Below, one piece after another: positions 133 to 21,800 of a DNA stretch of 64,000 bases. A model generated the notes under the pieces. The model was not told the DNA's origin, ran no database searches, and saw only the letters and a list, made by a program, of their open reading frames with translations. Every line of letters begins with the position of its first letter. The first letter of the stretch is position 1. Origin of the DNA: a virus; the IMG/VR virus record IMGVR_UViG_3300025137_000027, positions 1 to 64,000 of that record. One strand, written 5' to 3'. The position numbers and the translations under genes are program-made.

Positions 133-639
133 ATGAAAAAGCCAAAACATATGAAGTTAGAACTGTACCGTATGAGTACCGGCAAGGACAGTACACTAGG
201 AACTTTGTTTCTTAGTAAAGGCAAAGACAAAAGAAAGTATCTTTGCTTTACATTAGAGGATGAGCATCGTGACGAGAAGGTGATGGCAGAAACGCGCATC
301 CCGGCTGGCGTATACGATATTAAGCTCAGAGACTTCGGTGGTTACCACCAGAAGTATAGCAAACGTTTTAAAGACATTCACAAAGGAATGTTGTGGCTTC
401 AGGACGTACCAAACTTTAAGTATATACTAATCCACTGTGGCAACACGGAGGAGGATACAGCAGGATGCTTGCTTACCGGCTATGGGCCAAAGCGAGTAAA
501 GGATGGAGAATTTGAATTGTATAATAGCACCCAGGCGTATTTTGATGTGTACCCGCCTATAGCAAACCATCTTGCAGATGGAGGTACCGTAACTATTAAT
601 ATCTATGACTTCGATGAAATTCCAGAACGGATGGGGTAA
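133..639 (+). CDS. DUF5675 family protein (168 aa), lysis-module associated
   Basis: The protein matches the DUF5675 pattern: an early beta-strand section with TLEDE and IPAGVYDI, then the family signature near residues 100-115, where IHCGN is followed by a DTAGC motif. This His/Cys arrangement resembles L,D-transpeptidase-type active sites, so a peptidoglycan-related role is often suspected, but no activity is established to my knowledge. It precedes a holin by one small gene, which fits a lysis module. The ATG at 133 is used; a second ATG six codons later is a possible alternative start. There is no signal peptide. The family call is fairly secure, the function is not. Confidence 0.75.
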   Translation: MKKPKHMKLELYRMSTGKDSTLGTLFLSKGKDKRKYLCFTLEDEHRDEKVMAETRIPAGVYDIKLRDFGGYHQKYSKRFKDIHKGMLWLQDVPNFKYILIHCGNTEEDTAGCLLTGYGPKRVKDGEFELYNSTQAYFDVYPPIANHLADGGTVTINIYDFDEIPERMG

Positions 640-769
640 CCCAAATAAGCACGGAGATAAATTTATCTACAAGCTTCGAATCGGCACTATAACGGTGTTT
701 GACTTTATTGTTGACCTGAGTTCTAAAATGTACTCAGTTACTTTTTTCAACTTTACAATTAAGTTCTAA
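614..769 (+). CDS. Small conserved-looking phage protein (51 aa)
   Basis: A frame starts at ATG 614, inside the end of the DUF5675 gene, and stops at TAA 767-769. That stop overlaps the ATG of the holin gene (TAATG). The product begins MKFQNGWGNPNKHGDKF and ends in alternating hydrophobic and aromatic residues (SVTFFNFTIKF), probably beta strands. The start and stop overlaps with both neighbours are typical of translationally coupled phage genes and close what would otherwise be a 129-base gap. No family is recognised. A short hairpin at 716-737 lies inside the coding sequence. Confidence 0.65.
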   Translation: MKFQNGWGNPNKHGDKFIYKLRIGTITVFDFIVDLSSKMYSVTFFNFTIKF

Positions 770-1215
770 TGGACAAACTCCGCGACACTAAACTAGGGTC
801 GTGGCTAAAAGAAAAAGCGCCCAAGATTTTTGAAACAGTAGCCGACGCATTACCTGATGCCGGACTTCTGGGCGTAGTAAAGAACCTTGTAAATGCAGAC
901 AGTAGCCTTAGCCACGAGCAAAAACTAGAGTTCGAACGTCTTGAACAACAAGAGCGTATTGCATTAGAAGAGAACGTTACAAAACGTTGGACAGCTGATG
1001 TAGGATCTAAGAGTTGGCTTTCGAGGAATGTACGTCCCTTGATTGTAATGTCTTTGACTTTTATGTTTTTGGTTTTCATCTTGCTTGATACACTCTCTCC
1101 TGTTGAAGTGCGAGACGCTTGGATTAAGATGTATGAAACTATTCTAATGACTACTATTGGCGGCTACTTTGTAGTGCGTTCTGTAGATAAAAACCAGCTG
1201 CCATGGCAACGTTAA
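769..1215 (+). CDS. Holin, 3-TM gene-transfer-release type (148 aa)
   Basis: The N-terminal half is soluble and helical with an acidic coiled-coil stretch (residues about 45-70). The family signature WLSRNVRPLIV follows near residues 83-93, then a strong transmembrane segment (about 89-105) and a second hydrophobic segment (about 118-136). This is the architecture of the 'Holin of 3TMs, for gene-transfer release' family (PF11351 type). It would form inner-membrane lesions that release or activate a muralytic enzyme at the end of infection. The ATG overlaps the preceding stop, and the end overlaps the next gene by 13 bases, so it is co-translated with connector genes. Confidence 0.75.
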   Translation: MDKLRDTKLGSWLKEKAPKIFETVADALPDAGLLGVVKNLVNADSSLSHEQKLEFERLEQQERIALEENVTKRWTADVGSKSWLSRNVRPLIVMSLTFMFLVFILLDTLSPVEVRDAWIKMYETILMTTIGGYFVVRSVDKNQLPWQR

Positions 1216-2280: not shown

Positions 2281-3077
2281 TCTACAAAACAGTCTCATCT
2301 AAAGCTGTAATTGCGAAAGTCTTTCGTGATTTAAAGCCTACTACAGATACATGGGTCAATGACTCTGTGGAGTGGATGGGTGAGGCTCTCGAGTTTATCG
2401 GGTATTTTACTGGGTTAGAGAAAAAAGCAATGGAGCTTACTATTTCTAATCACCGTGCTTTACTCCCGTGCGAGCTTGTCGACATTGTTCAGGTAGAATA
2501 CAATGGGAGCCATTTGCACTACGGAACAGATACGACTGGGTATGATCTACCTAATGCTCCTCGTACTACTAACACACAGCCTTATAATGCGTCTGAGATT
2601 ACCACAGGAGCAGTGTTCCAAACTGTAGCAAATGAGCATCCTACAGGCAACAGTACGTACAAGCAGCAGAAAACCATAAAAGCTTCTTCTTACGGAGGAG
2701 GAGACTACTATGTTATTAATCCGGATTACATTCAAACTTCTTTTGAAGAGGGCACTATAAAAGTTCATTACACTGCTTATCCGATTTGCGATGACGGTTA
2801 CCCTAAAATTCCGGACAACATTTATTATAAGCAGGCACTCGAATGGTACATTCTAAGACAGATGATTATGGGGGGTTACACTCATCCGTTTCTGAATTGG
2901 CAGATAGCCGATCAAAAGTGGGGGCATTACTGTGTGGCTGCACAGAACGATGCAGCATACCCGAGCATCGACAAGATGGAGAGCTTCAAAAACATGTGGG
3001 TACGAATGGTTCCCAACATGAATGCACACTCCGATTTCTTTATTGGGAATAACACACAAGAGAGACTGCAGCGATGA
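2277..3077 (+). CDS. Head-tail connector / ring protein, putative (266 aa)
   Basis: The protein opens with helices containing WVNDSVEWMGEALEFIGYFTGLEKKAMEL, followed by a beta-rich section with LPCELVDIVQVEYNG, a low-complexity insert around residues 85-130, and a closing helical part with YYKQALEWYILRQM. This layout is that of the small ring/adaptor proteins of crAss-like virions, which resemble podoviral head-completion proteins. It starts four bases inside its predecessor and ends overlapping the large muzzle-type gene, so the three connector genes form one translational unit. The ring assignment is by resemblance and order, not by structure. Confidence 0.55.
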   Translation: MIYKTVSSKAVIAKVFRDLKPTTDTWVNDSVEWMGEALEFIGYFTGLEKKAMELTISNHRALLPCELVDIVQVEYNGSHLHYGTDTTGYDLPNAPRTTNTQPYNASEITTGAVFQTVANEHPTGNSTYKQQKTIKASSYGGGDYYVINPDYIQTSFEEGTIKVHYTAYPICDDGYPKIPDNIYYKQALEWYILRQMIMGGYTHPFLNWQIADQKWGHYCVAAQNDAAYPSIDKMESFKNMWVRMVPNMNAHSDFFIGNNTQERLQR

Positions 3078-6000
3078 AACCTATCAAAGGCATGAACTTA
3101 GACGTATCTCCGGATGCGCAACCGCCTAATACGTATCGTCACGCGCGTAACTGGGTGTATGACAAAACGTTCGACGGTTTAATGCAAGAACCAGGGCACA
3201 CTGCACTAGCTACCCATCAGAGTAGACACGCTGTTGGGCAACACGCTTATGAAAATGGAGATATTGTTTTCCTAACTGTAGCGTCAAATGCTGCAACAGG
3301 GGGTGAGGAAGTGGTGCTTTATACTGCCGCCACGAATACTTTTAGTGTAGTTTACAATGACTCGGCTTTAGTGTTCAACCGTGCTAGAATCTATGACTTT
3401 GCTTCTTTTCGCAATACGGATAACGAACGTATTCTAATTATTTCAGACGGAATAGATAAACCTCTATCTATAAATATAGATGTTGCAGCAGCTCAGCAGC
3501 CGCCGCACGGGTTGCAATACTTATTTGCAACGAGAGAGCAGGCCAACTTAAAGTTAGATGTAAGAACTTCAGGCTCTCTTGGAGAAGGTTCTTATTTTTT
3601 GGCTATTAGGTATGTTATGAAGGACAAAACCAAGCTCTCTTTTGGCCCAATACATGGACCTTTTACAGTAACGGACTCTGCTGGGTTTATTGTAGAGCTT
3701 ACAAATCTTGATACAAACTACGAAGGATACGAAATTGCCGTTTTAGCATTTGTAAACAACAGCCCGAGTACTTTCATAGGTGCATCAGGGTTAATTACAG
3801 GGGCTACTCTAAACTCTTACATTGAAGGAACTCCTATCGAAGCATTAGTTTTAGAAGACGTAATAGTAGGCGCGACTACTTACCAGACTGCAGGTTCTTT
3901 AGAAGTTCATGAAAACCGCCTTTACTTAGGAAATGTTAGTACGCCTTCAGATCCTGTAGATTTACAGCAGATTGCTAATAAAATTCAACCTATATGGGTT
4001 TTAAGTAGAGGTGTTACTGCGCAACCATCGGAGGAACCCGAGACGTCACGGTTTCAACCAGACGAGGTGTATGCTTTTTATGTATCTTATATTCGAGAGG
4101 ATGGGTCTCAAACTAGAGCTTACCATATCCCAGGACGAGCGGCTAGCTCGACTATTGCGGTTCCTATAACTGCCACAGCTTCTGCTACAGTAAGTACAGG
4201 AACTACGCGTACAATTAACCCAAAAGCAACTCTTAAAGCTATCTTAGAATCTACGTCTACTAATGGAGTAGACAACCATGAGAACGCCCTAGAGTATTTA
4301 AAAAATGACCGTCAGATTTTTGTCAGCGGTGATGCTGAATTTGACACTGTAAAATACTTTCATACGCGCGGTACGGCTAAAGCTTTTACCAATCAAACAG
4401 CTTTTCACTTTGGGGAGTGCGGGTATTGGGAAAACGACAACGAAACATACCCAACGGGGTTTCCTGTAGGCACTACGTATACTTGGAATGCTAGTGGGTT
4501 AAGCGCTGCATCTGTAGATTCTGCTGTAGTTTTAGCGGGGGAAAAAGTCCGACATCATCGTGTACCTTCTTTAGGCTGGATGTTTGAAAACGTAAGTGAC
4601 TTTGATTTTCAAGCAGACAAGGATCACGCATTTCAAATGCGGTTTGAGTACTTGGAGTTGCCGACTGGAATAAAAGGAGCCGTACTATATCATGCAAAAC
4701 GCACTAATTCTAACAATTTAGTTTTAGCCCATACTCCAATCCATTTTGGGGCCGCAAATCACTATTCGGTATGGGGCGAGGGAGGGACTGAGTATAGAGA
4801 CTACTCTACTGTATCTCCGGTAAACGCTCCCTTGCGTAACAATCTTCTTTCTCTTGCAGGTACTTCTCCAGGCGCTCCTATATCTTCTGCTGTTTCAAAC
4901 GCTCTCCGGGATGCTGCAGGAGATCCGAAAAAAGCGGATGGAAGTGCTTTTTCTACAAACGACTACTTTGATGTTGACGACGCCAGTCAGGCTAGCTTAA
5001 GCGTGTGGGATTCGGAGTTTTCTGATCGCGTTAAAGTGCACTACAACAAAGGGGCTGCAATGCCTCACGATTTGCTAGGAGCAAAGCCTGCTTTGCCTCA
5101 AAAAGTATACACGCGTCTTGAGTATGTTTTAATGGCAATGGAAGAGTACCCAGACGACATAAGTGGTCATCCTTCTATTACTGATGGCAATCACCATACT
5201 ATGCAGATTGCGGATACTAACGATGCATATTATTACGCAGATACAACTCTTCCAGGAACCCCGTTACCTAACTCTGCGAATAGATCAGGAGTTTTTAATT
5301 TTGTAGCGCACAACACTCAGATAAATAGACCTTTTCCTCAATCTGAAATTTTACCTACTCGGAATATTCGGTACGTTCCCGCAGGTGTAGTAGATGATGA
5401 AGTAAAGTTTGATAACCGGTTTGGAGCTGAATGTCTTTACTGGGATTACGCATTGCAATCCACTGGTTACGGGAACTATTCAGTTGCTGGTCACCACAAT
5501 ATGGGCGCTCGCATGTGGTATAGCATTTTAAATAATACCAATACTTTTAGCGATGACGGGACAGGGGATACGGATAATGCTAGCTTTACAAATAGTTTAC
5601 CTTCAGGTGGCACAAATACCCAAACTAACAACGCCGGGTATTTTGTAAATACCCAATTTTCGGCTAACGATGTTCTTGCAGTGCAGCGGTTGCCTTTTGT
5701 AAATGTTACAGCTATGCGCTTTGACTGTTATTTTGGGATTGAAGCTCAAGACTTAGTAGCCTGCACTCAAGTAATTACACTCGCTAATACTACCGTAGCG
5801 CCAAATATCAATAGTCAGGCTAGCTCTTTAAGAAGGGTGGCTGAAACTCAGGTTCACGGAGATATTAAGTTTTCGGAACGAAGGTATAGAGTTACGTCTT
5901 CTTCAGGTTGGAATGTAGGGTTTGCTGCTAGCGTAGAAGATCAACTGCAGATTACCACTTTTGCAGCGCCTGATATATCTGCCCAAGCTTTGACTACAGT

Positions 6001-7573
6001 TCCAACGGCTGGCACCATTAATAATTCAAGAGGGTCTGTTCGAATGGTTCACAAAGTCCCAACGTATGGGCCTGTCGAGAGTAAGATTCATCTTGCTGAA
6101 ACCGTGCAAGGTTTAGAATCTGAGTTTGAGGCGTGCTATAGACAAGTAAGTCCTCAAGAAACAAATGATGTTTCTTTTATTTCTAGCTTGTTAAAATTGA
6201 ATGACTGGATTCAGCCTCTGATACATGTAACCACATCTGAGTACCCCACATCTTTTGCGTATCGCATTGCTCGTAGTTCAAAGCAAGATCTTGGTACCTC
6301 CGTTTTGGCGTATAGATCTTTCCCAGCTTTAGACTATTTAGAACAACCTCGAACGCGTGGGGTTATTACAAACTTGCAGAGTTACTCAGATAAACTTTTG
6401 ATTCATCACGAGCAAAGTCTTTTTGTGACGGTAGGTAAAGAATCTGTTGCGACTTCTTCTGGGCAACTTGTTATAGGTACGGGAGATATCTTTCGCGTTA
6501 CTCCTTCGGAAATAGCTCCTAGTGAGTTTGGGTTTGGGGGGACGCAACATAAACAATCAGCTGTACTTACTCCCAGAGGTTATTTTTATGTAGACGCTCT
6601 TCAGGGTAAAGCTTTTTTGTACAATGGCAAACTAGAAGAGATTAGCAATCGCGGTATGCGGGACTACCTTAAGGACGCGCTTAAACTCAATACTACGTGG
6701 TTTCCAGGCGGTAATGCTCAAAGTTACTACCCTGGAGTATTAGCAGAGTATGACTCTGAGTTTAACAGGGTTATGTTAATGATTCGGAATAATACTTGGG
6801 TAGGGTCATATGGCGTAGGAAATACTACTCTTCCTTTTGATTTGAAAGATTATTACGCTAATACCTTCTTTAAAGATCAGACAGAGATACTGTCGTATAG
6901 CTTTAATAACAGTGCTTGGGTAGCTTTTCACGACTTACGTATGAATGCGTTTGTTGCTTCTGGAACAAATTTTTATAGTTGGAATACGGGACCAGTTGCA
7001 TCTCCGCCTCCGGCTGGAACATACTTAAACTTATTTAAGTTAAACGATTTTACAAATGCTTCTATTACGTACCATCACGATAGTGTCACAACAACTGTAG
7101 ATCCTTATATCGATATTGCATTCCCTGCAAAAGAGTCTGTTCAATGGCAATCTTTTTCGTGGCACACAAAGGCTATAGAGCATGTGCCAAATGATGCTAA
7201 TGCAGGGCATATAGATTTAACTAAAACGTTTGTAAAAGCTGCAGTTTATAATGACTACCAGTGTAGCGGAAATCAGACTTTTATTAAACCAGGAGACATT
7301 GATATTCAAACCTACCAGCGAGTGACTCTACGTCATAATGGTACTCAGTATCAGTTTAATGGGTTTAGAGATTTAGTGAATAATCGTTCTCTCAGGTTTA
7401 TTGACGATGCGCAAGAGTTTGTTACTGCTAATATTAATGCGGCTACTGTTTGGCACGATCAAAGACGTTTTAATAGCACTCATGCTATTCTTCGTTTAAT
7501 TGCTCCGACTACTACTACTAATCTGTTATATTTACATGATGTAGATGCTAAAGTGCGTAAGAGTTATAGATAA
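3074..7573 (+). CDS. Tail stabilisation / muzzle-type virion protein (1,499 aa)
   Basis: The N-terminus has the signature GMNLDVSPDAQPPNTYRHARNWV (first 30 residues), typical of the large 'tail stabilisation' or muzzle protein of crAss-like phages, in which a Q-P-x-N-T-Y-R-x-A-x-N pattern recurs. The remainder is long, beta-rich and Ser/Thr/Asn-rich without membrane segments, consistent with a propeller or beta-sandwich distal tail component. Residues about 1100-1230 contain a compact region with LLIHHEQSLFVTVGKES and GYFYVDALQGKAFLYNG that reads like beta-propeller blades. The gene overlaps the ring protein by four bases. Host-surface contact is likely but not shown. Confidence 0.6.
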   Translation: MKPIKGMNLDVSPDAQPPNTYRHARNWVYDKTFDGLMQEPGHTALATHQSRHAVGQHAYENGDIVFLTVASNAATGGEEVVLYTAATNTFSVVYNDSALVFNRARIYDFASFRNTDNERILIISDGIDKPLSINIDVAAAQQPPHGLQYLFATREQANLKLDVRTSGSLGEGSYFLAIRYVMKDKTKLSFGPIHGPFTVTDSAGFIVELTNLDTNYEGYEIAVLAFVNNSPSTFIGASGLITGATLNSYIEGTPIEALVLEDVIVGATTYQTAGSLEVHENRLYLGNVSTPSDPVDLQQIANKIQPIWVLSRGVTAQPSEEPETSRFQPDEVYAFYVSYIREDGSQTRAYHIPGRAASSTIAVPITATASATVSTGTTRTINPKATLKAILESTSTNGVDNHENALEYLKNDRQIFVSGDAEFDTVKYFHTRGTAKAFTNQTAFHFGECGYWENDNETYPTGFPVGTTYTWNASGLSAASVDSAVVLAGEKVRHHRVPSLGWMFENVSDFDFQADKDHAFQMRFEYLELPTGIKGAVLYHAKRTNSNNLVLAHTPIHFGAANHYSVWGEGGTEYRDYSTVSPVNAPLRNNLLSLAGTSPGAPISSAVSNALRDAAGDPKKADGSAFSTNDYFDVDDASQASLSVWDSEFSDRVKVHYNKGAAMPHDLLGAKPALPQKVYTRLEYVLMAMEEYPDDISGHPSITDGNHHTMQIADTNDAYYYADTTLPGTPLPNSANRSGVFNFVAHNTQINRPFPQSEILPTRNIRYVPAGVVDDEVKFDNRFGAECLYWDYALQSTGYGNYSVAGHHNMGARMWYSILNNTNTFSDDGTGDTDNASFTNSLPSGGTNTQTNNAGYFVNTQFSANDVLAVQRLPFVNVTAMRFDCYFGIEAQDLVACTQVITLANTTVAPNINSQASSLRRVAETQVHGDIKFSERRYRVTSSSGWNVGFAASVEDQLQITTFAAPDISAQALTTVPTAGTINNSRGSVRMVHKVPTYGPVESKIHLAETVQGLESEFEACYRQVSPQETNDVSFISSLLKLNDWIQPLIHVTTSEYPTSFAYRIARSSKQDLGTSVLAYRSFPALDYLEQPRTRGVITNLQSYSDKLLIHHEQSLFVTVGKESVATSSGQLVIGTGDIFRVTPSEIAPSEFGFGGTQHKQSAVLTPRGYFYVDALQGKAFLYNGKLEEISNRGMRDYLKDALKLNTTWFPGGNAQSYYPGVLAEYDSEFNRVMLMIRNNTWVGSYGVGNTTLPFDLKDYYANTFFKDQTEILSYSFNNSAWVAFHDLRMNAFVASGTNFYSWNTGPVASPPPAGTYLNLFKLNDFTNASITYHHDSVTTTVDPYIDIAFPAKESVQWQSFSWHTKAIEHVPNDANAGHIDLTKTFVKAAVYNDYQCSGNQTFIKPGDIDIQTYQRVTLRHNGTQYQFNGFRDLVNNRSLRFIDDAQEFVTANINAATVWHDQRRFNSTHAILRLIAPTTTTNLLYLHDVDAKVRKSYR

Positions 7574-7839: not shown

Positions 7840-7962
7840 GAGGATTTAAACGTCCTTAAAAGATTAACGAATAGATTCGAAAAGGAAACCCTTGGGGGTC
7901 AGCCTACACGTCTGCCTGCAGTAAAACGTCAGAAAACGTACTACTACTAAACGTAAACGGTG
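7840..7962 (+). other. Intergenic region with AAACGT repeats and an open in-frame extension
   Basis: This 123-base spacer separates the lysine-rich gene from the secreted T9SS protein. AAACGT occurs four times (7848-7853, 7924-7929, 7934-7939, 7949-7954); the second and third are exactly 10 bases apart, about one helical turn. The reading frame of the upstream gene, if its TAA stop were read through, continues to TAA 7948-7950 and would add 36 mostly basic residues. No ATG lies in that extension. Either a promoter/operator region or a recoded tail would explain the spacer; neither is proven. Confidence 0.4.
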
Positions 7963-10098
7963 ATGAAAGGCTTTTTATTCTTTTTTGGTTCTCTATTGCC
8001 TGCAGTACTGCTTGGACAGAGCTGGGTACTTGTGTCATTGCAAACAGATCTGTACGCGCCTGAAACAAGCTGGGTTATTGTACAGGGGGAGGAGGTAGTA
8101 GAGGAGTCTTCTCTGTATCTTACAGAGTCGTACAATGAAAAGATTGTTTACCTGCAGCCCGGCAATTACGACTTTATTATTTACGATAGTTTTGGCGACG
8201 GTATTTGCTGTGCGTTTGGGGAAGGTTACTTCTCTTTATCTAATTCTTGCGGGTTAGATATTTCGGTATATGATTTTGCATCATCCGCACTGACTGTTCC
8301 TTTTGAAGTTCTGCCCTGCCCACCTCCGATTTTTGGATGCAGTGATCCTCAGGGAGTTAACTACAACCCTTGGGCAAACGTTTCTCAGCCTTGTGTTTAT
8401 CCCCCACAACCTTGCGCGGAAGGAGAAACTACTGTTATTGTTACTGTTACTCCTGATACGTATGCGGGGGAGATTAGTTGGGGGCTTCAGTCTAATGGGG
8501 TAGAGATACTATCGGGCAGTGGGTATACTTCTGTAGGAGTCCCGGTTACATACGATGCATGTATTGCTGTTGCAGACACGCTTGTTTTAGAAGTGCTAGA
8601 CACTTTTGGCGATGGGATGTGCGGAAGCTGCTACGGGGGAGTGGACGGCAATATTTCTATTACAACCTTATGCCAAGACACCCTATTTTATGTAGGCGAT
8701 ACAACGCAATACTCTGCTATTTCTAGTGAGTTAATTATAGTAGAAGAGTGCGTGTTAGATCTGCTTGAAGGATGTACAGATTATAACTTTACTGAGTATG
8801 ACCCGCTTGCTCTTATTGACGACGGTTCTTGTACTACAGAGGTTATTCTAGGTTGCACTATACCAGGCTCTTTAAACTTCAACCCAGAAGCTAATACTTT
8901 AGAAACTAACCCTATATGTATGAGCCTGCTTACTCTAACCGATGGGGCGGGCGATGGCTGGTTTGGAAGTTGGTTAGGCGTTATCCAAGGGGATGAGATT
9001 TTTGGTCCATTTCAAATGGGGCCTAATGATGGCATAGAAGAATTTTTCTATCTCCCGCTCTACTCCGGCGAACCCATTCAAGTTTACTTCTTTACTGGGG
9101 GCAACGCTGAAACCACTGCTGCTCAATGTGGTTTTCTTCTTACCAGTCCTCAAGGCATCTTCTTGGAGGCGGGCAGTAACCCTTGGAACGACGCTATTAA
9201 GAAGTTTCCCTATTCCTATACAGGTGTTCCCTTCTGCAATGACTTGTGTATCGAATCGGTAATCGGGTGTATGGACTCCCAAGCCTGTGATTATAACTCG
9301 CAGTCTAACGTACAAGGGGACTGTACTTTTCCTATTGAGTTCTACAACTGTTCGAACGAGTGCATCTTTGATACTGACAATGATGGTATTTGCGATGAGT
9401 TGGAGGTTGTAGGGTGTATGGATGCTACTGCCTTTAATTACAACGAACTTGCTAGTGACCCAGGAGAATGTGACCCATTTGTCTTTGGGTGTATCGACCC
9501 CACCCAATATAATTACGACCCTGCAGCGAATACGGATAACGGTAGCTGCATTCCCTTTGTGTACGGCTGTACTGATGTACTCGCTATCAACTTTGAGGAG
9601 GACGCGAATACTGACAACGGAGGGTGCGTTGAAGCTGTCATGGGTTGTATGGATCTTGATGCTTATAACTTCGAGGTTTCCGCTAATATAGCGAATAATG
9701 GTATATGCTTGTATGATGCCGGCTGCATTACAGGACCTGGGCAACCTTACTGGGCAAACGACTCTTGCTACTCTTGGGTTATTGAAGTCGATCCTTTTTG
9801 CTGTGAGTCAGAGTGGGACGGGGCATGCCAAGAACTTCACGCTTACTGCGAGTTAGGCTGGCCTACAGATGTTACAGAGATAAATCACACTATTCGAGTG
9901 TATCCTAATCCTGTACAAGACCTGTTAAACATTAGCTGTCCGAATCTGCAATATGCAAAGGCGTATAATAGCCTTGGTCAATTAATTTATGAAGGGGCAG
10001 AGTCTGCAATTAGTACCGAGCACTGGAAACCTGGCGTATATCATGTAACAGTCTACGCTTACTTGCGGTCTTACCAAATTAAAATTGTAAAGTCATGA
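7963..10098 (+). CDS. Secreted T9SS type A cargo protein, Cys-rich repeats (711 aa)
   Basis: Residues 1-20 form a signal peptide (MKGFLFFFGSLLPAVLLG, cleaved before Gln, as is common in Bacteroidota). Two domains with a Y-x-F-x-I-x-DSFGDG-x-C core follow (about residues 20-110 and 145-245). Then come eight imperfect 'GC-D-x-x-A-x-N-Y' repeats with closing Cys residues (about 125, 270, 296, 434, 484, 506, 528, 552) and a Cys-rich DPFCC...WD..C segment (about 590-630). The last about 68 residues, starting IRVYPNPVQDLLNI, are a Por-secretion/T9SS type A sorting domain. The host T9SS would export and surface-anchor it. A GTG lies one codon upstream; the ATG at 7963 gives the better signal peptide. 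It overlaps the beta-barrel gene by four bases. Confidence 0.85.
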   Translation: MKGFLFFFGSLLPAVLLGQSWVLVSLQTDLYAPETSWVIVQGEEVVEESSLYLTESYNEKIVYLQPGNYDFIIYDSFGDGICCAFGEGYFSLSNSCGLDISVYDFASSALTVPFEVLPCPPPIFGCSDPQGVNYNPWANVSQPCVYPPQPCAEGETTVIVTVTPDTYAGEISWGLQSNGVEILSGSGYTSVGVPVTYDACIAVADTLVLEVLDTFGDGMCGSCYGGVDGNISITTLCQDTLFYVGDTTQYSAISSELIIVEECVLDLLEGCTDYNFTEYDPLALIDDGSCTTEVILGCTIPGSLNFNPEANTLETNPICMSLLTLTDGAGDGWFGSWLGVIQGDEIFGPFQMGPNDGIEEFFYLPLYSGEPIQVYFFTGGNAETTAAQCGFLLTSPQGIFLEAGSNPWNDAIKKFPYSYTGVPFCNDLCIESVIGCMDSQACDYNSQSNVQGDCTFPIEFYNCSNECIFDTDNDGICDELEVVGCMDATAFNYNELASDPGECDPFVFGCIDPTQYNYDPAANTDNGSCIPFVYGCTDVLAINFEEDANTDNGGCVEAVMGCMDLDAYNFEVSANIANNGICLYDAGCITGPGQPYWANDSCYSWVIEVDPFCCESEWDGACQELHAYCELGWPTDVTEINHTIRVYPNPVQDLLNISCPNLQYAKAYNSLGQLIYEGAESAISTEHWKPGVYHVTVYAYLRSYQIKIVKS

Positions 10099-11135
10099 GA
10101 CTAGCAGTCCTTTTGTTTTTTACCGCTTTACCATTTGTAGGACAGGCGCAGGTATTTAAGAATTTTTTTAAATACTCTACGTTATACGCAGCTGCTAATG
10201 GCAATAATTCTTTAGCTACAACAGAAGCGTATTCTATAGATGGTAATACTGTTCAGTATGACTTAATCCAAACGCCCTTTGACTACAGCTTAACACTAGG
10301 CATTCGTAAGATTGCTAGGTTTGGTTATGAGAATAGAGCAAATGCATTTTACGATGGAACTGAAAAAACTTATGGAGATGATGCTACTATAGGTAAAAGG
10401 CAAGGCTTTGAGTTTTTATCTGAGATTGATTATCGCAGGCAACAAGGTCGGGTGCTAGTAAACCAACATCACTTTTTACGGTATGTATCAAAACGTTGGC
10501 TGGCTAAAGTTGAATACTTAGAAGATGGGTTTGCAGATGTGAAGTACGCGGAGGGGTCACAGCGTTTGCGTATTAATAGTAAAGGCAAGCTTTCTTTTAA
10601 CGCAGGCATTGCGCAGCGCATTTCAGAGGCGTACGGCTACGATCCCATCGCGGAGTGGGTAGAGGCTAACAACTCTGTTCATTACACCACCTTAGCGCTC
10701 CAAGAGGGTTATAGCGTGGATTTTAATACACAAGACTTCCTTAATCCAAATGGCGAAAGGGTAGCAAGTAGCATAGATGTTTGGAGAGAGGTTGTGATTC
10801 CTACGGTTCTTAGCGACTATGCTGAAAAACAACGTCTACTTCTTGGGGACCAGTGGTGTCATAGTCTAGTGCTAGGTTACGACTACTACTACAATAGCAA
10901 AGATTTATGGTTGCACACCTGGGGTAACTTCTACCCTTACCATCTAGATCTAAACAACGAGTACTCTTACAATACTCTTATCGGAGCTAACGACTGGTTA
11001 GACTTGTCAGTAGGCGTGGTTAGCGGGTGGCGAATTACTAAAAGTTTAGGTATTTTTTTAGAGGGGACTTACAACCGGTATTGGAACCGTTCGTGGCATA
11101 ATTTTTCTGCTGGGGTAAACTATGTAATTTATTAA
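10095..11135 (+). CDS. Outer-membrane beta-barrel protein, putative (346 aa)
   Basis: A clear signal peptide (MRLAVLLFFTALPFVGQAQ) is followed by alternating-pattern strands rich in Tyr, Trp and Phe, such as LVLGYDYYYNSKDLWLHTW and KSLGIFLEGTYNRYWNRSW. The chain ends in ...VNYVIY, the aromatic C-terminal residue recognised by the BAM machinery. There are no hydrophobic helices after the signal peptide. These features indicate an outer-membrane barrel placed in the host envelope. It is translationally coupled (ATGA overlap) to the T9SS cargo gene, suggesting they act together, for example in surface display or superinfection exclusion. It lacks the YMFN/NPAYAG-type sequence of PorP/SprF, so I do not call it a T9SS component. 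Confidence 0.7.
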   Translation: MRLAVLLFFTALPFVGQAQVFKNFFKYSTLYAAANGNNSLATTEAYSIDGNTVQYDLIQTPFDYSLTLGIRKIARFGYENRANAFYDGTEKTYGDDATIGKRQGFEFLSEIDYRRQQGRVLVNQHHFLRYVSKRWLAKVEYLEDGFADVKYAEGSQRLRINSKGKLSFNAGIAQRISEAYGYDPIAEWVEANNSVHYTTLALQEGYSVDFNTQDFLNPNGERVASSIDVWREVVIPTVLSDYAEKQRLLLGDQWCHSLVLGYDYYYNSKDLWLHTWGNFYPYHLDLNNEYSYNTLIGANDWLDLSVGVVSGWRITKSLGIFLEGTYNRYWNRSWHNFSAGVNYVIY

Positions 11136-11425
11136 TGATGGGAAAGGAATTAAATGAAGACACGAGCTTTCAGGTAAGTATTAAAACATTGCTTACTATT
11201 GGGGCGGGGATGGTGGTGATAATTAGTGGTTGGTTTGTTTTACAAGCTGATATTGAGGAAGCTAAGAAGTTGCCGGAACCTGCTGAGCCTGAGATTACAC
11301 GCATGGAATTTGATATGAAAGACAAGCTTGTGCGTCAAACTATTATGACAACCCAAGAGGATGTTTCTGAAATAAAAGATGACATGAAACGGATAGAAGA
11401 AAAAATTGATAACTTAAGAAAATGA
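11135..11425 (+). CDS. Membrane-anchored coiled-coil protein (96 aa)
   Basis: One transmembrane helix spans about residues 17-40 (TLLTIGAGMVVIISGWFVL). It is followed by a proline/acid-rich linker and a heptad-patterned helix (about residues 60-96, ending VSEIKDDMKRIEEKIDNLR). An N-terminal anchor plus a periplasmic coiled coil is compatible with an inner-membrane spanin subunit or a membrane scaffold, but no partner lipoprotein is adjacent. Start ATG overlaps the stop of the beta-barrel gene (TAATG; a second ATG follows at once). Confidence 0.65.
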   Translation: MMGKELNEDTSFQVSIKTLLTIGAGMVVIISGWFVLQADIEEAKKLPEPAEPEITRMEFDMKDKLVRQTIMTTQEDVSEIKDDMKRIEEKIDNLRK

Positions 11426-11429
11426 ACTA

Positions 11430-11795
11430 ATGAAAATTATTACCGCAATATTTGCTACTTTTGTTGTGGGTGCATTGATATTTGCTACACCTGATGTAGC
11501 GAATACAGAAAATCTATATGAGGGTCTTTGCGTTGTAGAATTTAACGCAGGCTTTAACTCACAGAACAGTGTTCCTTGGATAGAGGAACTCACAGATTGT
11601 ACGGGCCGGCGAGTAGACATCGCTTCTTCCCCAGCAGAACAAGCAGATCACAGCATCGTAGTAGTGCCTACAATCATTATTTTTAATGAGGGGCAAGAAG
11701 TAAAACGGTACCAAGCTAACATCATGATGGAGTTAGAGGTACAGAAAGAAACTATTCAAGAGGATATTGATGAAATCATAATGAGCGACTTCTAA
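11430..11795 (+). CDS. Thioredoxin-fold-like protein lacking CxxC (121 aa)
   Basis: An N-terminal hydrophobic segment (residues 1-20) suggests export or membrane anchoring. The next part has the thioredoxin order: strand VVEFNAGF, helix with PWIEELTDC, strand RRVDIASS, then VVPTIIIFNEGQEVKRY, where the cis-proline region VPT and following strand match thioredoxins. The redox-active CxxC is absent; the only cysteines are C34 and C57 by my count. A non-redox scaffold or chaperone role is therefore more likely. The gene lies four bases after its predecessor and its stop overlaps the next ATG. Confidence 0.55.
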   Translation: MKIITAIFATFVVGALIFATPDVANTENLYEGLCVVEFNAGFNSQNSVPWIEELTDCTGRRVDIASSPAEQADHSIVVVPTIIIFNEGQEVKRYQANIMMELEVQKETIQEDIDEIIMSDF

Positions 11796-12398: not shown

Positions 12399-13981
12399 GC
12401 AAGAAATTTAACGGAGAACGGTGCGAGCGTCGAAACTTAACTGATTTAGTTCTGGGTACGGGACCAACTGGTATGAAGCGCCCTGTTACTAAAAAGAAAC
12501 AACCTGCTAAGTCGACTGTTCCTCAAATGAACTACGGAGGGCCTTTCATAGCTTCTGATTACTATGCTAATTTAGCTAACGCTAATCCAGAAATGGTTGA
12601 GAATGGTGCAATGCAAGCTCCTGAAGGATTCGAGTTTCCTACTGAGGGTGGCGCTACTATGACTCCTGGGCAATTCCCAGAATTTATGAAGCAGTATCTT
12701 GCAAAACAGGGCAACATGAGTCTAGCAAGTTCTGCAGGTCAATCTGCAGGACAGTTTATTACCCAAAATTCGGATACTGTTGGTGACCCTATGGCTAATT
12801 TTGGCGTAGGAGAAGGGCTAGGGGCAGCTGTAAGCGGAGCAGCTAACCCTTTCGCTATGTCTTTTGGACCTGCAGGCATGGTAGTTGGTGCTGGGGTAGG
12901 TTTACTTAAGGCTAGGCAAGAGAGTAACATGGAAAAAAATCGTTTCATAGCAGAAGAAGAAAGACTTTCTGGTATGCGAACGGCTGCAAATGTGGCTAAT
13001 GCACAAGACTTTAGTCGTCAGGCTTTAAGTACTTACGATCAAGACGGTGCAGGAGGAGGGTACTACTCTAAGTATGGAGGACCAGTAGATCGTTTTTACA
13101 TGGGAGGAGCTACTAAGCGACAGTATCCCCATGGCGGAGGAACTCATCCTCCTGTTATTCCTGGGATGGAGCAATATGCCCAATACAATAACTTAAATCC
13201 TGATCTTGCTGCTGCTGTTGCAAACCGGCCTGAGACTTCTGATAGGTTAACAAATTATACTAATGCGGAACAGCGCAGGTATAACAATATAGGAAATCAA
13301 ACACGTATAAATTCTGCTGTTGAAAATGCGAGGAATAATGCAAATACTTTTGCTACTAACACTTATAATTTTCATAAGGAGCAACCTTTGGATGCGCTAG
13401 GCATGGATTTAGCTATTGCTGGTCAGCTCCCTATAGTAGGCGAGGCGGCGGACTTATTAAATGCTGGAATTAGTGGAGCGCGAGGCTTTTACAATACTGC
13501 AGTAGGAGATACCGCAAAAGCTAAAGAACAGTATGCATTAGCGACACTTAGCGGGTTAAGTGCAATCCCTATTGCAGGAAATGTAACTGGAGCAGCTCGC
13601 ATAGGTAAAGGACTGTACAAGGCTTCTCATGGTGCTCACAAGCTAGAGAGAGGGGTCATTGGCGCAAAAGGAGTAAAAGCCGGGACTTACGAGTCTTATG
13701 CTATGGGCGGCCCTATCGATTATGAAACTGAAAAAGAAGAAGTTATATTAGCTTCGCCTTACGACCGACCCGTAGCGCCGGGACAAGGAAGCTATAACCA
13801 GCTGTCTGAAAATCTTTTTAAAGGTAATGGCCCTAGTCACGCGCAAGGAGGTATTCCTACACGAGGTGCTACACAACCATTTGTAGACGCTGGAGGGCAA
13901 CCTGTTGATAGCCCATATGTATTTAGCGATTCTAAAGATATGAAATTTGATCCGAATGACATTTTATCTATGATCACATGA
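12395..13981 (+). CDS. Internal virion / cargo-type protein, putative (528 aa)
   Basis: The N-terminus is basic and then carries VPQMNYGGPF. A glycine/alanine-rich hydrophobic stretch (about residues 145-175) and a second one (about 345-410) could be membrane-active. The motif YGGP/MGG recurs (about 228-240 and 437-440). The C-terminal region has GNGPSHAQGGIPTRG and SPYVFSDS, a pattern seen near the C-terminus of putative ejected or cargo proteins of crAss-like phages. It is coupled by ATGA overlaps to genes on both sides, in a run that ends with the virion RNA polymerase. Internal virion location is inferred. Confidence 0.5.
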   Translation: MSKKFNGERCERRNLTDLVLGTGPTGMKRPVTKKKQPAKSTVPQMNYGGPFIASDYYANLANANPEMVENGAMQAPEGFEFPTEGGATMTPGQFPEFMKQYLAKQGNMSLASSAGQSAGQFITQNSDTVGDPMANFGVGEGLGAAVSGAANPFAMSFGPAGMVVGAGVGLLKARQESNMEKNRFIAEEERLSGMRTAANVANAQDFSRQALSTYDQDGAGGGYYSKYGGPVDRFYMGGATKRQYPHGGGTHPPVIPGMEQYAQYNNLNPDLAAAVANRPETSDRLTNYTNAEQRRYNNIGNQTRINSAVENARNNANTFATNTYNFHKEQPLDALGMDLAIAGQLPIVGEAADLLNAGISGARGFYNTAVGDTAKAKEQYALATLSGLSAIPIAGNVTGAARIGKGLYKASHGAHKLERGVIGAKGVKAGTYESYAMGGPIDYETEKEEVILASPYDRPVAPGQGSYNQLSENLFKGNGPSHAQGGIPTRGATQPFVDAGGQPVDSPYVFSDSKDMKFDPNDILSMIT

Positions 13982-16900
13982 GTAAGAAGAAGATGACCCC
14001 TGCTCAAGTAGCAGAAAAAATAGCGCGGTTTATAGCTAAACAAGAAGAAACGTTAAAGACTTACCCTGTAGGTCCTTTAGGCAACACGGCAAAGCGTAAT
14101 TTGGAAAAGGGTAAGAAAGCGTTAGCTGCTTTGCAAGGTAAGAACGAAGAGATGCGTATGGCTATGCAGCCTCAAGGTCAGGCTGCTATGCCTTCCCAGC
14201 AAATGGCATTAGGGGGGGATTTAGTAAGCGCACTTCCGGCTGCTAGTGGAGCAGGGACTGCTTCTAGTATAACACCCGCACAGCAGTCTATGATTGATAG
14301 CCTGTCTTCTCAGTATGGCATGAGTCCTGCTATTGCTGCTGCTGTAGCTTCTGTAACCCAAAAAGAAAGCGGGGGGTCAGGAACTAAAGCAGAAAATAAT
14401 TACAGCAACACTTCTAATGCTGCTATTAGAGGAGTAAACACCCGTTTTGCAAGGAAGTTTAAGGACATGCCAGACGCAGAGCTTACTAAGCTTAAAGCGA
14501 ATCCAGAGGCGTTCTTTAATTATGTATACGATGATGCTACCGGTAACTCTGCTGAGGGTGACGGCTACAAGTATAGAGGGCGAGGGCTTGTACAAGTTAC
14601 TGGCAAGGCTAATTACAAACGCGTAAGCCAGGCAGTATACGGGGATGATCGCTTAGTAGACAATCCGGACTTGCTTTTAGACGATGCTACTGCCGGAGCA
14701 GCTGCTGCTTATTTTGCTGCGGAAAGCGGTAAAGGGGTAAAAGGATATGTGGACTTTGATTTGAGCACGCCTAATCCCTCTCCCGAACAGATACAACAAG
14801 TATTAAATGGGTCGTACGCTGTAGTTGCATCTGGAGGAACTTTGTCAAAGACAGAAGCTCAAGACTCTGCAAAGATGGCAAAGCGGTACGAACAGTTTAA
14901 TAAGAGTATGGCTACAATGCAGGCGTTTGCCGGAGTAAATGTTCCAAACTCCCAGGGTTCTAACGAAGCTTCTGCACAAAATACTAATGGTTCAAATGCT
15001 GTTGCACCCCAAACGCAGAGAGTTCAAGAACCTCAAGTTTCTATTCCTGAAGAATTAGATGATAATAAACTATTTGAGTTAGCTGCTTCTGATAAACGCA
15101 CGTTGGATTTTATGCAACGTAATAATGTTACTACAAGTGACTTAAATAAAGCTTTAGCAGGAGAGTACGTAGACATCCCTAACCGAGCTGCATTTGATGG
15201 CTTAGTTAGAAAAGTTGCTAGTGATTACACTACTTCTCGAAACTCTGCAATAGCTCAAACCCAAGCGTCTCGTACAAAAGATAAAACAGGCGACTCTATT
15301 GGGTGGAGCGAATCTTTAGGCATTTCTAGAGAGCGTTATAAAGAGTTAGCTTCAGAAGCAGAAGACGAGTTCCCCGATCAGGCTTTAGCTTATATACCTG
15401 GTCCCGAGGGTACTGAGGGTAGCTTTCGAGTTGATATAACTAGTCCTATGGGTTCGGCAAGGGTAGTTACGGATAGGCCAGAATTTACTGGTATGCAGGC
15501 AAAAATTAACTATGATAATTTTAAAGCCGGCGGGGAGGATTTCTTAGAACGTGGGATAGAAATGACGGATGCGGTAAAGGCAGGGCGAGACGAGTTCGCA
15601 GATACTTTTATGAAACCTGCTCTAGCTATGGGTTTAGGAGCTGCGGCTTTAGCCCCAGGAGCTATAGGATTAGGCGGTCTTAGTATGGGTCAAACTGGGT
15701 TAGCTGCTCAAGCCGTCGGTCGGCAATTTTTATCTGGTCAGGTTTTTAATCCTGCTATTGCTGGTGGAGGCATTAATTATGCGGGGGCTTTGGGGTCTGC
15801 AGCAGTTGCAGCACAGATGACGTCTGGAGTTATGCGTACTGCTGGAGACTTTGGGTTAACTGATCGGCAAAATGCTTTTGAAGTTGCAATGGACCCTGAC
15901 TTAAGTGCTCTTCAAAAAGCGCAGTATTTTACTGAAATAGGTTTAGAGTTATCCCCGGCACTTTTCGAAAGTCCGACAGCTATAAGAAATATATTTCGAG
16001 GTAAGCCGTCAGATTTTCCAGGTAGCCGTTCTCAATTTTTAATGGCGCGTAGAGCAGGACTTAATAAAGCAGATGATGCTTCGGCTTTAGTTGATGAAAC
16101 GCAGGATGCTTTTAGAGCTGTTCAAACTAATCGGGGGTCTTTTAAAAACACTGCAGCTTCGGCAGAGCAAAAAGCTCTAGCTGCTGAAACTAAAGCAACA
16201 AACTCTCCTACGAAAGCGAATAAAACAGCAGCTACTAAAGCTCGGGCGAAAGCAGAGACTGCAAAAGCAAATGATGCGCAGGCTTTGCGTAACCAGCAAT
16301 CTGCAGGGGCGTTTAGAAACAACGCTGTAGGTCGGGCAGGGGTAGCAGATGATGAGCTGAACTTATTTAATAAACGTTACAACGCTGCTCGAGAGCCTTA
16401 CAGTTTTGGTTCTACTGGAGTATTAAGTAATACAGGTAAGTTAATACCTGCGGCAGTTTCTGCGGCTCCTATGTTAGCTAACCTTGCTACTAACCCGGCT
16501 CAGAACACTCCAGAAAATGTACGAGCTGTATCTCCCACTATAGTAGATCCTCAAATACAGGCGAATCAAATTGAACAACCTGTAAGCGACCCTAATCAGG
16601 TTCCGACTAGAGATGGTTCTGGGACAACACCTGGTGGAGGGACTAGAGAAGGCGTCGCACCGTTGCCTGTTCGAGGAGTAGAAGAGGTAGCTTCTGTATT
16701 GCCTACAAAGGAAATACAAACTGCTTCTCCTGAAATGATGCAGGTAAATATGCCTAAGATGAACGCGTTACAAGCAGTACCTGCTATGGCATCTCTGGGT
16801 AGCGCGGCAATCCAACGTCGGGCACTTAATGCTATGCAAGGACCTCAGCGTCCTATTGAAACTGATATACCGCAGTTTGCTTATGAAAGTAATATTCAAA

Positions 16901-17313
16901 GTACGCTCGACGATATCCGCAATGCTACTAACACGGCAGCCCGAGGTACAAACTTACCGCAACAAGCGGCTGCTGCAAACCAACAAGCTTTAATGGCAAA
17001 CCGGTTTAGAGCAGAAGGGCGTGCACGGGCTATCGACAATCAAGCAAAGCAACAAGCTAAAGCGCGTTATGATACGATGGCTTACCAAGGAAGAGCAGTT
17101 CAAAACGATTTACGTAGCAAATACCAAGATGATATGGTAGGGTTTAATAATCAGAAGGCTATGCTTGATGCTCAAATCAAACAACAACCTCTGAACGTAC
17201 TAGCTTCTAGCACTCAAGACTACCTAAAAAACATTTATGCGCCTAACTTAGCAGCAATGTTTGAATCGCAAGGCCGGCAGTACGGCACAAACTACACTGA
17301 AGAAAATACATAA
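13978..17313 (+). CDS. Virion protein with GH19 lysozyme/chitinase domain (1,111 aa)
   Basis: Residues about 100-310 form a glycoside hydrolase family 19 type domain: SSQYGMSPAIAAAVASVTQKESGG, then the diagnostic GDGYKYRGRGLVQVTGKANY (about 195-214). The QKESGG glutamate is a plausible catalytic acid. The rest is long, Ala/Gln-rich and helical, with a hydrophobic Gly/Ala stretch at about 545-610 and many Asn/Gln repeats. A muralytic domain in a large virion protein fits local peptidoglycan opening during DNA entry. It lies directly between other putative ejected proteins and overlaps them by 1-4 bases. The GH19 call is secure; virion location is inferred. Confidence 0.7.
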   Translation: MSKKKMTPAQVAEKIARFIAKQEETLKTYPVGPLGNTAKRNLEKGKKALAALQGKNEEMRMAMQPQGQAAMPSQQMALGGDLVSALPAASGAGTASSITPAQQSMIDSLSSQYGMSPAIAAAVASVTQKESGGSGTKAENNYSNTSNAAIRGVNTRFARKFKDMPDAELTKLKANPEAFFNYVYDDATGNSAEGDGYKYRGRGLVQVTGKANYKRVSQAVYGDDRLVDNPDLLLDDATAGAAAAYFAAESGKGVKGYVDFDLSTPNPSPEQIQQVLNGSYAVVASGGTLSKTEAQDSAKMAKRYEQFNKSMATMQAFAGVNVPNSQGSNEASAQNTNGSNAVAPQTQRVQEPQVSIPEELDDNKLFELAASDKRTLDFMQRNNVTTSDLNKALAGEYVDIPNRAAFDGLVRKVASDYTTSRNSAIAQTQASRTKDKTGDSIGWSESLGISRERYKELASEAEDEFPDQALAYIPGPEGTEGSFRVDITSPMGSARVVTDRPEFTGMQAKINYDNFKAGGEDFLERGIEMTDAVKAGRDEFADTFMKPALAMGLGAAALAPGAIGLGGLSMGQTGLAAQAVGRQFLSGQVFNPAIAGGGINYAGALGSAAVAAQMTSGVMRTAGDFGLTDRQNAFEVAMDPDLSALQKAQYFTEIGLELSPALFESPTAIRNIFRGKPSDFPGSRSQFLMARRAGLNKADDASALVDETQDAFRAVQTNRGSFKNTAASAEQKALAAETKATNSPTKANKTAATKARAKAETAKANDAQALRNQQSAGAFRNNAVGRAGVADDELNLFNKRYNAAREPYSFGSTGVLSNTGKLIPAAVSAAPMLANLATNPAQNTPENVRAVSPTIVDPQIQANQIEQPVSDPNQVPTRDGSGTTPGGGTREGVAPLPVRGVEEVASVLPTKEIQTASPEMMQVNMPKMNALQAVPAMASLGSAAIQRRALNAMQGPQRPIETDIPQFAYESNIQSTLDDIRNATNTAARGTNLPQQAAAANQQALMANRFRAEGRARAIDNQAKQQAKARYDTMAYQGRAVQNDLRSKYQDDMVGFNNQKAMLDAQIKQQPLNVLASSTQDYLKNIYAPNLAAMFESQGRQYGTNYTEENT

Positions 17314-18853: not shown

Positions 18854-21800
18854 ATGGCGGAGGAAAATCAAGAGCCGGTCAACCTGGGCGATCTAGGTAC
18901 GGCATCATCCTCAGACATTCGCAAAGCTTTAGAAGGACAGCCTAGTCCTGTAGAAGCGAAGGATGCTGTTGACTCGGAAACACCAACTGAAACCCCTGAT
19001 GCACCACCTGCATCTCCGGGTCAGGACATTACAGGGTTTCTTACAAACAGCAGTAACAATATTGTCCAGAAGGAGAACGGCAGCTTTAAGTTTATAAATC
19101 CTTACGATAATAACTTAGATGTTGACTTAGATCAGTTTGAAACTCAGCGACGTCGAGTATCGGAAGGTAGCGCGTTGTCAGGCATTTTAAACGGGGTAGA
19201 AGGGCTTGAAGAAAGCTTTACTTACACTAGCTTAGAAGACACTGCAAAACGCAGTCAGGAGGCTCAAGGCGTCATCAATAAGATGAAGAATGGGATGACT
19301 CAGCTTGTAGCAGATACAGGTATAAATGTTGCTCAAGGTTTTGGCGCATTGCTTTACGGAGTTCCTAGTGCTATAGCGAATGGCGACATCACAAAACTGT
19401 ATGATAATTCTTTAGCTAATAACTTAGATAAAGGCACAGAGTTTTTAGACGAGTTCTATAAGATAAAACGAGGGGGTGACCAGAGTAAGGGTCAGAAGGT
19501 AGCTAACTTTTTATTTGATGACTTAGCGGGCGGTGCAAGTTTTGTAATGGGTGCTATTGCTACAGAAATGGCATTTAGTGCTCTTACTGCTGCAACTTTT
19601 GGAGGAGCTGCTCCTGCGCAAGCTGCAGTTACTGCAGGTCTTGTGGCTCGAGGTACGCGGTTAGCTCAAAAAACTTTACAAGGAGGGAAGGCTTTAATAT
19701 CAGGTAGCCTAGTAGACGATGCTTTACGGGCTAGTAGATCTTTAGGAGCTGCAGCTACTAGAGAAGGTGCGGCTTCTGCTTTGCAAGCTGCGGCTCAAAC
19801 TGCGCGTACTCCGATGGCGCTTCAAGCAGCAGCACGTGTAGGACGTCAGCTTATTACAGGCGCTTCAATGGAGTCTGGTATGGAAGCAAGACACATGCTC
19901 AATGCTTCAGTTGAGAACCAAAAACAACAGTATGAAGAACTAAACGGTAAAGGTTCTTTTTCTGAGGAGATGGCAGGAGACTTTCGAGAGGAAATTAGCG
20001 GGTATGCAGACGGTGTTTTCGGGGCTAATATGGCTTTGGTAGGAGCGTCTAACATGTTGATGTTTCCAAAACTGTTTGGGGTAGGGTTACGCAAAGGAAT
20101 GTCTACTTCAAAGTTTATTGATACAAGTAAACTTTCTCAGAAAGCACGGGCGCGATTGGCTAAAAATCTAGGAGTAGTAGAAGGCAAGCTTCCGCGTCTT
20201 GTAGATGCTGCAAGAGGGAACACTCTAGGGCGTATAGCGGGTCGCACTGGGACTGTAGGACGTGTAACTGCTGCCAATACTAAGAATGCTTTGTATGAAG
20301 GTTTTATCGAGGAAGGTGGGCAAGGAGCTATCAGTCGTTCGACAGAGGATTACATATCGAAACGCTATGACCCAAAAGGCGTAAAGGATACTGTACGGTT
20401 TGCAGACAGCTTTTTAGAGGGACTTAAAGGCAGCTACACGACCAAAGACGGCTTTAAGGAAATTGGCATTGGTATGCTTCTAGCATTTACAGGTGTCCCT
20501 ATGTATGCCCGTAATCAAAGTACTACTCCGTCTTCTAATAGTGAAACGGCTGGAAAGCCTGAGAAGAAGTGGAAGTGGCAAATGATGGGAGGGTATGCAG
20601 ATCAACGGAAAGCACTCATAGCGCGGGATAAAAAAATGGACGCTATTATGAACCTGTCTGAGAAGCACGGGGATGTAGGCGGCATACTGCGGGCAGAGAT
20701 AGCAAATATGAATAGACAAAATGTTTTGCAAAAAGAGCAAGACGCGTCTATTCAAGAGGGCCGATTCAAAGAAGCCAAAGATGCGGAAGCTGAAATGATT
20801 TTTTCTCATGCCGCAACTAAAGTCGTTACTGGTCGGTATGAGCAATCTATTGCTGAAGCTCAGCAGATTATGGACGAGATGTCAGACGAGGAGTTGCGGG
20901 AACAGCTAGGCCCTTCTGCAAAAAACATGACAGAAGAAGACTTGCGTGCCCACCGCAATAAAGCCATGGAAACTTACCGGTCTAGAATGGATCGGGCTAG
21001 GCAGGCGTATGATAGGGCAGGTACAGTGTACAGAGGAGAAGATGCAGACATCCATACGGGAGTCGCTCATATGCTTTATATGACTAAGGAGAAGGATGCA
21101 CGTGAGAAGAGTATTGCGGGAGAGATTGCAGATGCAATTGAAAATATGAATGAAGGTGATGTTCTTGATCTTGTCCGTATGCAGGCAGATTTAAACATGA
21201 CTGAGAGCACGACTAATTCATTTTTAGACCTTATTAATAAATATCAAAATATTGATAAACAGCTTAATACAAAGCTGGAACGTAAGATTATAAAAAACAT
21301 TGACCCGGAAAAAGCTGACCAACGTCAAAAAGATATTGCTAGCGCTCAACAAGCTCGGGAAATACTGGCGGAACAAATGGAAACTATGCTGGAGACTATG
21401 GCTACAGCACAGAATGTCGAACGAGGTAAGTACGACTTTGACCTTAGCACATTCGATCGTTTAGGAGACTTACATAGAGCGATTAGACGTCAACAAGGGG
21501 TCGAGTTTCAAGAGGCGGATCTAAAGGCTTTGTTTGAGGACATGTATGCCGTAGCACAGGACCGTCTAAATTTAATTGGTAACTATAACGACTTTATTAA
21601 ACCTGGAGGTGTTGAGCGTTTTGAATCTAAGATGATTGGTTCTATAGAGCGTTTAGCAAAGATGTCTCCTGAGCAGCGTCAAGAAGCTCGTCAACAAGCG
21701 GCAGCCGAAGAAGATGCTGATGCTGATTCTGCGGTAGCAGAAGAGATAGTAAAGGCGGAAGAGGCAGCTACAAAACAGGCTTCTTCACCCCAAAATCCAG

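Follow-up and report, generated by a model that had tools for sequence, protein, structure and literature searches.

At positions 7963-10098 of the DNA analysed here (the window, 64,000 nucleotides forming part of a 76,868-base IMG/VR record) lies the gene for a predicted T9SS cargo protein, the first of a four-gene module in the order cargo, outer-membrane barrel, 96-aa gene and thioredoxin-fold gene. The window is from a crAss-like phage, presumably of Bacteroidota: its MCP shares 34% identity with the counterpart in Bacteroides phage crAss002, in an alignment covering 99% of the length, its terminase matches phrog_6681 and its portal phrog_6547. The features that matter for the argument are these:

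133-639, plus strand: DUF5675 protein (PF18925, 89 bits), a module neighbour in some relatives
769-1215, plus strand: holin-like protein with a weak GTA_holin_3TM match below cut-off, a frequent module neighbour in relatives
3074-7573, plus strand: muzzle-type virion structural protein of 1499 aa, upstream of the module (phrog_15100)
7963-10098, plus strand: predicted T9SS type A cargo of 711 aa, with signal peptide, Cys-rich repeats, Cys core and C-terminal sorting domain
7963-8019, plus strand: cargo signal peptide, residues 1-19, assigned by eye
9706-9849, plus strand: conserved Cys core of the cargo, residues 582-629, CLYDAGC..GPG.PYW.ND.CY.WVI.VD.(YF)CC..WD..C
9898-10092, plus strand: type A T9SS sorting domain of the cargo, residues 646-710 (PF18962, TIGR04183, fold match)
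10095-11135, plus strand: phage-specific outer-membrane beta-barrel of 346 aa with a signal peptide (AlphaFold, structure matches)
11135-11425, plus strand: 96-aa protein whose single transmembrane segment is followed by a conserved coiled-coil-like tail
11430-11795, plus strand: secreted thioredoxin-fold protein of 121 aa, without CxxC and with one near-invariant Cys
13978-17313, plus strand: late protein of 1111 aa, downstream of the module, with an endolysin-like domain near its N-terminus
33590-34858, plus strand: second predicted T9SS cargo, type B (CHU_C / Bac_Flav_CTERM), 422 aa (PF13585, TIGR04131)

The preliminary description of this DNA was right about the cargo itself and about its place straight after the muzzle-type gene, with one small ORF between the two, but it overlooked the three linked genes (for the barrel, the 96-aa protein and the thioredoxin-like protein), the type B cargo, and how widely the module is distributed. 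Downstream, the 1111-aa late protein matches the phrog_181 endolysin across residues 32-361 (E 6.6e-25), and may be a virion-associated or a free lysin. The second cargo scores 60.7 bits with PF13585 (cut-off 27) and 34.3 bits with TIGR04131, under the cut-off of 35; it carries one GC repeat near its N-terminus, and the type B domain is above cut-off in three further related records. Its gene stands directly 3' of a single gene (18854-33586) for a virion protein of 4910 aa, which matches phrog_32390 and phrog_16227 and may have arisen by fusion of proteins encoded separately in other crAss-like phages. Further along, 37004-38068 encodes a gamma-glutamyl cyclotransferase-like domain (GGACT, 81 bits) together with a weak glutamine amidotransferase match.

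Architecture and conservation of the cargo

The cargo ORF runs from an ATG at 7963 to a stop at 10098, with an in-frame GTG at 7960. A signal peptide, eight GC repeats and a C-terminal sorting domain had been claimed for it at the outset, and the sequence agrees with all three. Judged by eye, the N-terminus (MKGFLFFFGSLLPAVLLGQ) looks like a Sec signal peptide, and a crude signal-peptide rule is satisfied by 109 of the 112 homologues whose start is in view. Eight repeat-type GC motifs fall at residues 125, 270, 297, 435, 484, 509, 535 and 561; a strict version of the pattern occurs six times, compared with an average of 0.1 across 2000 shuffled versions, none of which had more than two. The protein holds 40 cysteines in all.

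For the sorting domain, the preliminary description had made its reading depend on a profile match at the C-terminus. Both profiles score above cut-off, PF18962 with 27.7 bits (cut-off 27, residues 646-700) and TIGR04183 with 23.9 bits (cut-off 23, residues 646-710, at the extreme C-terminus), values that barely exceed the curated cut-offs and are marginal taken alone. They are strengthened by the scores of cargo homologues, which reach 47 bits, by PF18962, which exceeds its cut-off in 18 of the 50 related phage records, and by the fold of the CTD. The related records, together with the module in IMG/VR relatives, also answer in the affirmative the earlier question of whether related phages carry the cargo. 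The AlphaFold model has a mean pLDDT of 72, rising to about 85 over most of the CTD part, and its residues 645-710 match the CTDs of NucA, RemA, FspA and RgpB with a Foldseek probability of 1.00 (TMt 0.76 for 8glk_D, 0.72 for 8gl6_D, 0.74 for 8glj_D and 0.55 for 7pq4). Three of the matched solved CTDs are bound in the T9SS translocon.

Across the family, the Cys core is the most strongly conserved region of the cargo. Measured against the relative L002, the whole protein has a dN/dS of 0.063, with synonymous differences near saturation, which indicates that it is under purifying selection; the CTD evolves faster than the core (dN 0.25 vs 0.034). The 112 homologues range from 545 to 1374 aa and from 6 to 28 repeats. 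Their N-terminal modules and repeat number vary and their C-terminal core is kept, a pattern to be expected of a surface-binding protein. We rejected the idea that the cargo is a host orthologue, its core being matched weakly and in 5 of 198 genomes.

Predicted export of the cargo by the host T9SS is well supported, and it is the best-supported step of the reading developed below. This part of the preliminary description is backed by the sequence, by the fold, by conservation and by the way phage lineages have exchanged host-type C-terminal tags. Its further claim, that the protein is attached to the host surface, is of another kind: type A cargos typically end up attached to the cell surface, and from that behaviour we infer that the phage protein would do the same.

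That description had also known of no characterised phage protein using the T9SS, and here it needs correcting with earlier in silico work. Cryophage was reported, in silico, to encode T9SS cargos (a GH39, a PA14 protein and an endoglucanase) that were proposed to use the host T9SS (PMC7468147), and crAss-BACON cluster 2 phages were likewise reported in silico to encode T9SS cargos, which are BACON or unnamed proteins (PMC6949934). The present cargo resembles these in being a phage protein with a T9SS sorting domain; it differs in its linked module of barrel, 96-aa and thioredoxin-fold genes, of which the passages of those reports on T9SS cargos make no mention. The paper on Tenacibaculum phage Larrie mentions the T9SS solely for the host.

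Some relatives of the cargo keep the conserved core and have exchanged the type A domain for a tail roughly 50 residues long, VTDLLGRP.KIIKNKLLFYIYSDGSVERKLIK (for example L036:12541-15006, L063:14234-16627 and L040:12306-14549). In Pfam and NCBIfam scans of the tail-bearing cargos this short tail (VTDLLGRP...YIYSDGSVERKLIK) received no name. Every one of 52 genomes from one Flavobacteriales family has 3-49 copies of the same tail, and at the host loci inspected (L094-L105) it forms the extreme C-terminus of varied proteins, many of them with signal peptides. SprA is present in 44 of 52 genomes of this family, PorV in 25 of 26 and PorP/SprF in 26 of 26 of those sampled. The short tail is a candidate for an export tag that has so far escaped annotation, and the simplest reading would be that it is a tag of the host and that phages use their host's own. 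Matched tail types might then serve as a host marker for phages with the module.

Partner genes and their linkage to the cargo

In the window, the start of the barrel gene overlaps the cargo stop by 4 nt. The AlphaFold model of the barrel (pLDDT 72) has about 12-14 barrel strands, some short or uncertain, and its structural matches are outer-membrane barrels of several families (Tsx, NanC, KdgM, autotransporter domains and FadL), the best detailed match being Tsx (Z 15.0, rmsd 3.5 over 192 residues). Type B cargos are secreted and anchored by neighbouring PorP/SprF barrels (PMC9143113, PMC12618676), and the present locus resembles the SprB-SprF pair in having a cargo gene beside a gene for a predicted outer-membrane barrel, whose strand number may be close to the 14 of the shuttle barrels. 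It differs from PorP/SprF pairs in that the phage cargo is of type A and the phage barrel is not detectably related to theirs and is without the SprF cysteines. Pfam and NCBIfam gave no PorP/SprF or PorV match for the barrel, profile-profile comparison assigned these families probabilities of 6% and 2%, and no Cys at all is conserved across 80 barrel homologues, so that the Cys-x-Cys of the SprF C-terminal tail is missing. Homology to PorP/SprF or PorV was rejected by the profile comparison; the structural search listed barrels of other families only, an outcome compatible with either answer. By these sequence tests the barrel should not be named a member of either family; it may act in a shuttle-like way. 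A lipobox was not seen in the window's barrel, and a lipobox-like motif occurs in 23 of 137 homologues.

We also rejected the barrel as a host gene. It was found in 1 of 295 genomes of the class, on a presumed phage contig, and in six contigs of a genome collection, four of which carry the module or phage genes and two of which are short contig ends with a phage giant gene. These six (L088-L093) come from MAGs labelled Bacteroidota, archaeon (one Nitrosopelagicus) and Maricaulis (two), and hold the whole or part of the module; because their gene content is phage-like, they are probably phage DNA binned with the MAGs. The giant ORF that stands upstream of the barrel in some relatives was considered as a giant adhesin and rejected: it is nearly free of Cys, lacks both a signal peptide and a sorting domain, and looks like an internal virion protein.

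The 121-aa family has a thioredoxin fold by profile (best E 5.7e-9 in an hmmsearch of its alignment against PDB sequences). CxxC is found in 2 of 122 homologues, and the single Cys is kept in 79 of 80. A CxxC-less, single-Cys thioredoxin-fold protein shares a module with a Cys-rich cargo. The T9SS is known to employ disulfides between proteins (PMC12635249).

The linkage of the four genes was followed in IMG/VR by three separate scans, one for each of cargo, 96-aa protein and barrel, which yielded at least 571, 596 and 556 confirmed stretches, respectively. The best 80 of each scan were taken, so that the following counts cover the closest relatives, distant forms could be less tightly linked, and the three sets partly overlap in contigs. 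Within the best 80 of at least 571 cargo matches, which gave 76 new loci, those with full flank (5.5 kb or more to each side) contained the barrel in 41 of 41, the 96-aa gene in 40 of 41 and the thioredoxin-fold gene in 40 of 41; every barrel found in this set (71/71) was on the cargo strand, and the 4-nt overlap recurred in 30 of the 51 loci with the cargo first. Among the best 80 of at least 596 matches to the 96-aa protein, loci with enough flank carried the cargo (37/38), the barrel (37/38) and the thioredoxin-fold gene (38/38), and among the best 80 of at least 556 barrel matches the cargo, the 96-aa gene and the thioredoxin-fold gene were each present in 34 of 34. The four genes are near-obligately linked in the examined loci. 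Exceptions are L220, which has full flank and no recognised cargo, and the distant pair L070 and L071, in which the three partners are present and the cargo is absent from view; the record of L070 has a type B domain elsewhere. The very large viral contigs L151 (297,623 bases) and L157 (231,285 bases) carry the cargo and barrel as well, and in L151 the 96-aa and thioredoxin-fold genes were not recognised near them.

A crAss-like capsid protein was found in 4 of the 29 records tested, many of the others being fragments, and a T4-type Gp23 capsid protein (E ~1e-75) in two large records of 165,609 and 122,293 bases. Since the module is present in both crAss-like and T4-like phages, it has moved between unrelated phage types or was acquired more than once. 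Among 50,697 deposited phage records, the barrel, the 96-aa protein and the thioredoxin-fold protein had zero matches; of the cargo, the GC repeat alone was matched, by four records of Synechococcus phages and one of a single-cell marine virus. With at least 550 finds in IMG/VR for each of cargo, 96-aa protein and barrel, and the partners absent from the deposited phages, this appears to be a common phage function that has gone unstudied. In the open-access literature that we searched, no description of the four-gene module came to light. Together, the data suggest that the module is a widespread, unstudied way in which phages remodel the infected cell's surface.

Possible roles in infection

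We propose that the cargo is a late surface protein of the T9SS which, with three envelope partners, serves in receptor shielding or exclusion, a proposal that we advance tentatively and that, taken whole, falls a little short of probable. The cargo would be made with the late genes and cross the inner membrane by Sec; SprA and PorV would carry it through the outer membrane by way of its type A CTD, and it would end on the surface of the infected cell or be released. There it would act with the outer-membrane barrel, which may be its dedicated outer-membrane partner or anchor, with the 96-aa protein as an inner-membrane, periplasmic coiled-coil component, and with the thioredoxin-fold protein in the periplasm. 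Once displayed, it would shield or occupy surface receptors, sparing the cell a second infection and keeping progeny from being lost on debris. The proposal draws on the sorting domain and its fold, the near-obligate linkage, the occurrence in unrelated phages and the purifying selection; T9SS-dependent export, surface location, timing and the joint action of the four proteins are steps that we infer.

By analogy, receptor shielding or superinfection exclusion would be the most likely end effect, favoured by the precedent of phage T5 Llp, which blocks its receptor FhuA from the envelope (PMC9586334), and by the shape of the cargo, which is long, variable and, as predicted, displayed. The likeness lies in a phage protein placed in the host envelope and in the receptor-blocking model; in contrast, Llp acts on FhuA as a small lipoprotein in the periplasm, and here a large T9SS cargo with three partners would be at work. 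Superinfection-exclusion proteins are usually early products, and the position of the cargo gene among late genes speaks against shielding, as does a neighbourhood of lysis genes that suits lysis equally or better. A role of the barrel as a known shuttle is countered by the lack of any PorV or PorP/SprF relation detectable by sequence profile. The computed results do not separate shielding from lysis, nor do they favour shielding over other surface roles, and our confidence is accordingly modest.

A role in lysis, the chief competing reading, which we judge rather unlikely, would have the 96-aa protein as an inner-membrane, spanin-like component, the barrel as its outer-membrane counterpart and the cargo weakening or opening the surface layer for virion escape. 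The four proteins are indeed predicted in the inner membrane, periplasm, outer membrane and surface, and the 96-aa protein could be arranged as i-spanins are, N-in and with the coiled coil out. Genes recognised as holin, endolysin or DUF5675 occurred in 58 of 89 dereplicated loci, the nearest being one gene off in 25 and one to two in 36; the mean distance was 3.2 genes vs 5.5 for random blocks, with 0 of 5000 resamplings as low, a closeness that is overstated in that the lysis families were picked from the same loci. In T4-like phages an amidase endolysin and a holin directly follow the module, whereas in the window itself the holin-like gene lies about 6.7 kb away. The module has in common with holin-endolysin-spanin cassettes this neighbourhood and a one-TM coiled-coil protein; unlike them, it has no clear o-spanin lipoprotein and includes an exported surface protein. 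Moreover, in none of the four proteins did we detect a domain with a catalytic or disrupting activity, and we know of no lysis pathway that requires a long, repeat-variable, Cys-rich exported protein.

Returning to surface display by the host T9SS, the four genes may represent a hitherto unrecognised kind of phage system, a transferable module that spans the whole Bacteroidota envelope, in which display through the host T9SS would be obligate in the lytic cycle, the tag would be swapped per host clade, and the single-Cys thioredoxin-fold protein would perhaps be disulfide-bonded to the cargo or to the T9SS/gliding track. We regard this extended form as possible, leaning towards doubtful. The T9SS is confined to Bacteroidota and relatives. 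If phages need it to finish infection, the state of the T9SS would affect phage sensitivity, and common uncultured phages would gain a testable step late in infection.

The GC repeats, the Cys-rich modules and, in one relative, a MAM domain are adhesion-like, and the second cargo of the window has the type B sorting domain of the gliding adhesin SprB. The cargo could accordingly be an adhesin or coat that alters how infected cells or debris interact, through aggregation, dispersal or protection, without blocking a receptor. This we find improbable: a lytic infection leaves little time to benefit, and near-obligate linkage to three envelope proteins suggests a more specific task than adhesion.

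Given its position between the muzzle-type gene and other virion genes, and its repeat-rich, variable N-terminus, the cargo might also be a virion appendage or fibre whose CTD is a leftover or a virion fold. Such a role is highly improbable, as the signal peptide and the many cysteines suggest an oxidising location outside the cytoplasm, nearly all relatives retain the sorting domain or have a different host tag instead, and the module stands beside lysis genes in T4-like phages. That the genes are host-derived chance passengers with no role in infection, as weak matches of the cargo core in host secreted proteins might suggest, is scarcely tenable in view of the purifying selection, the near-obligate four-gene linkage, the hundreds of IMG/VR copies (each scan giving the minimum counts above) and the near-absence of the barrel from genomes of the class.
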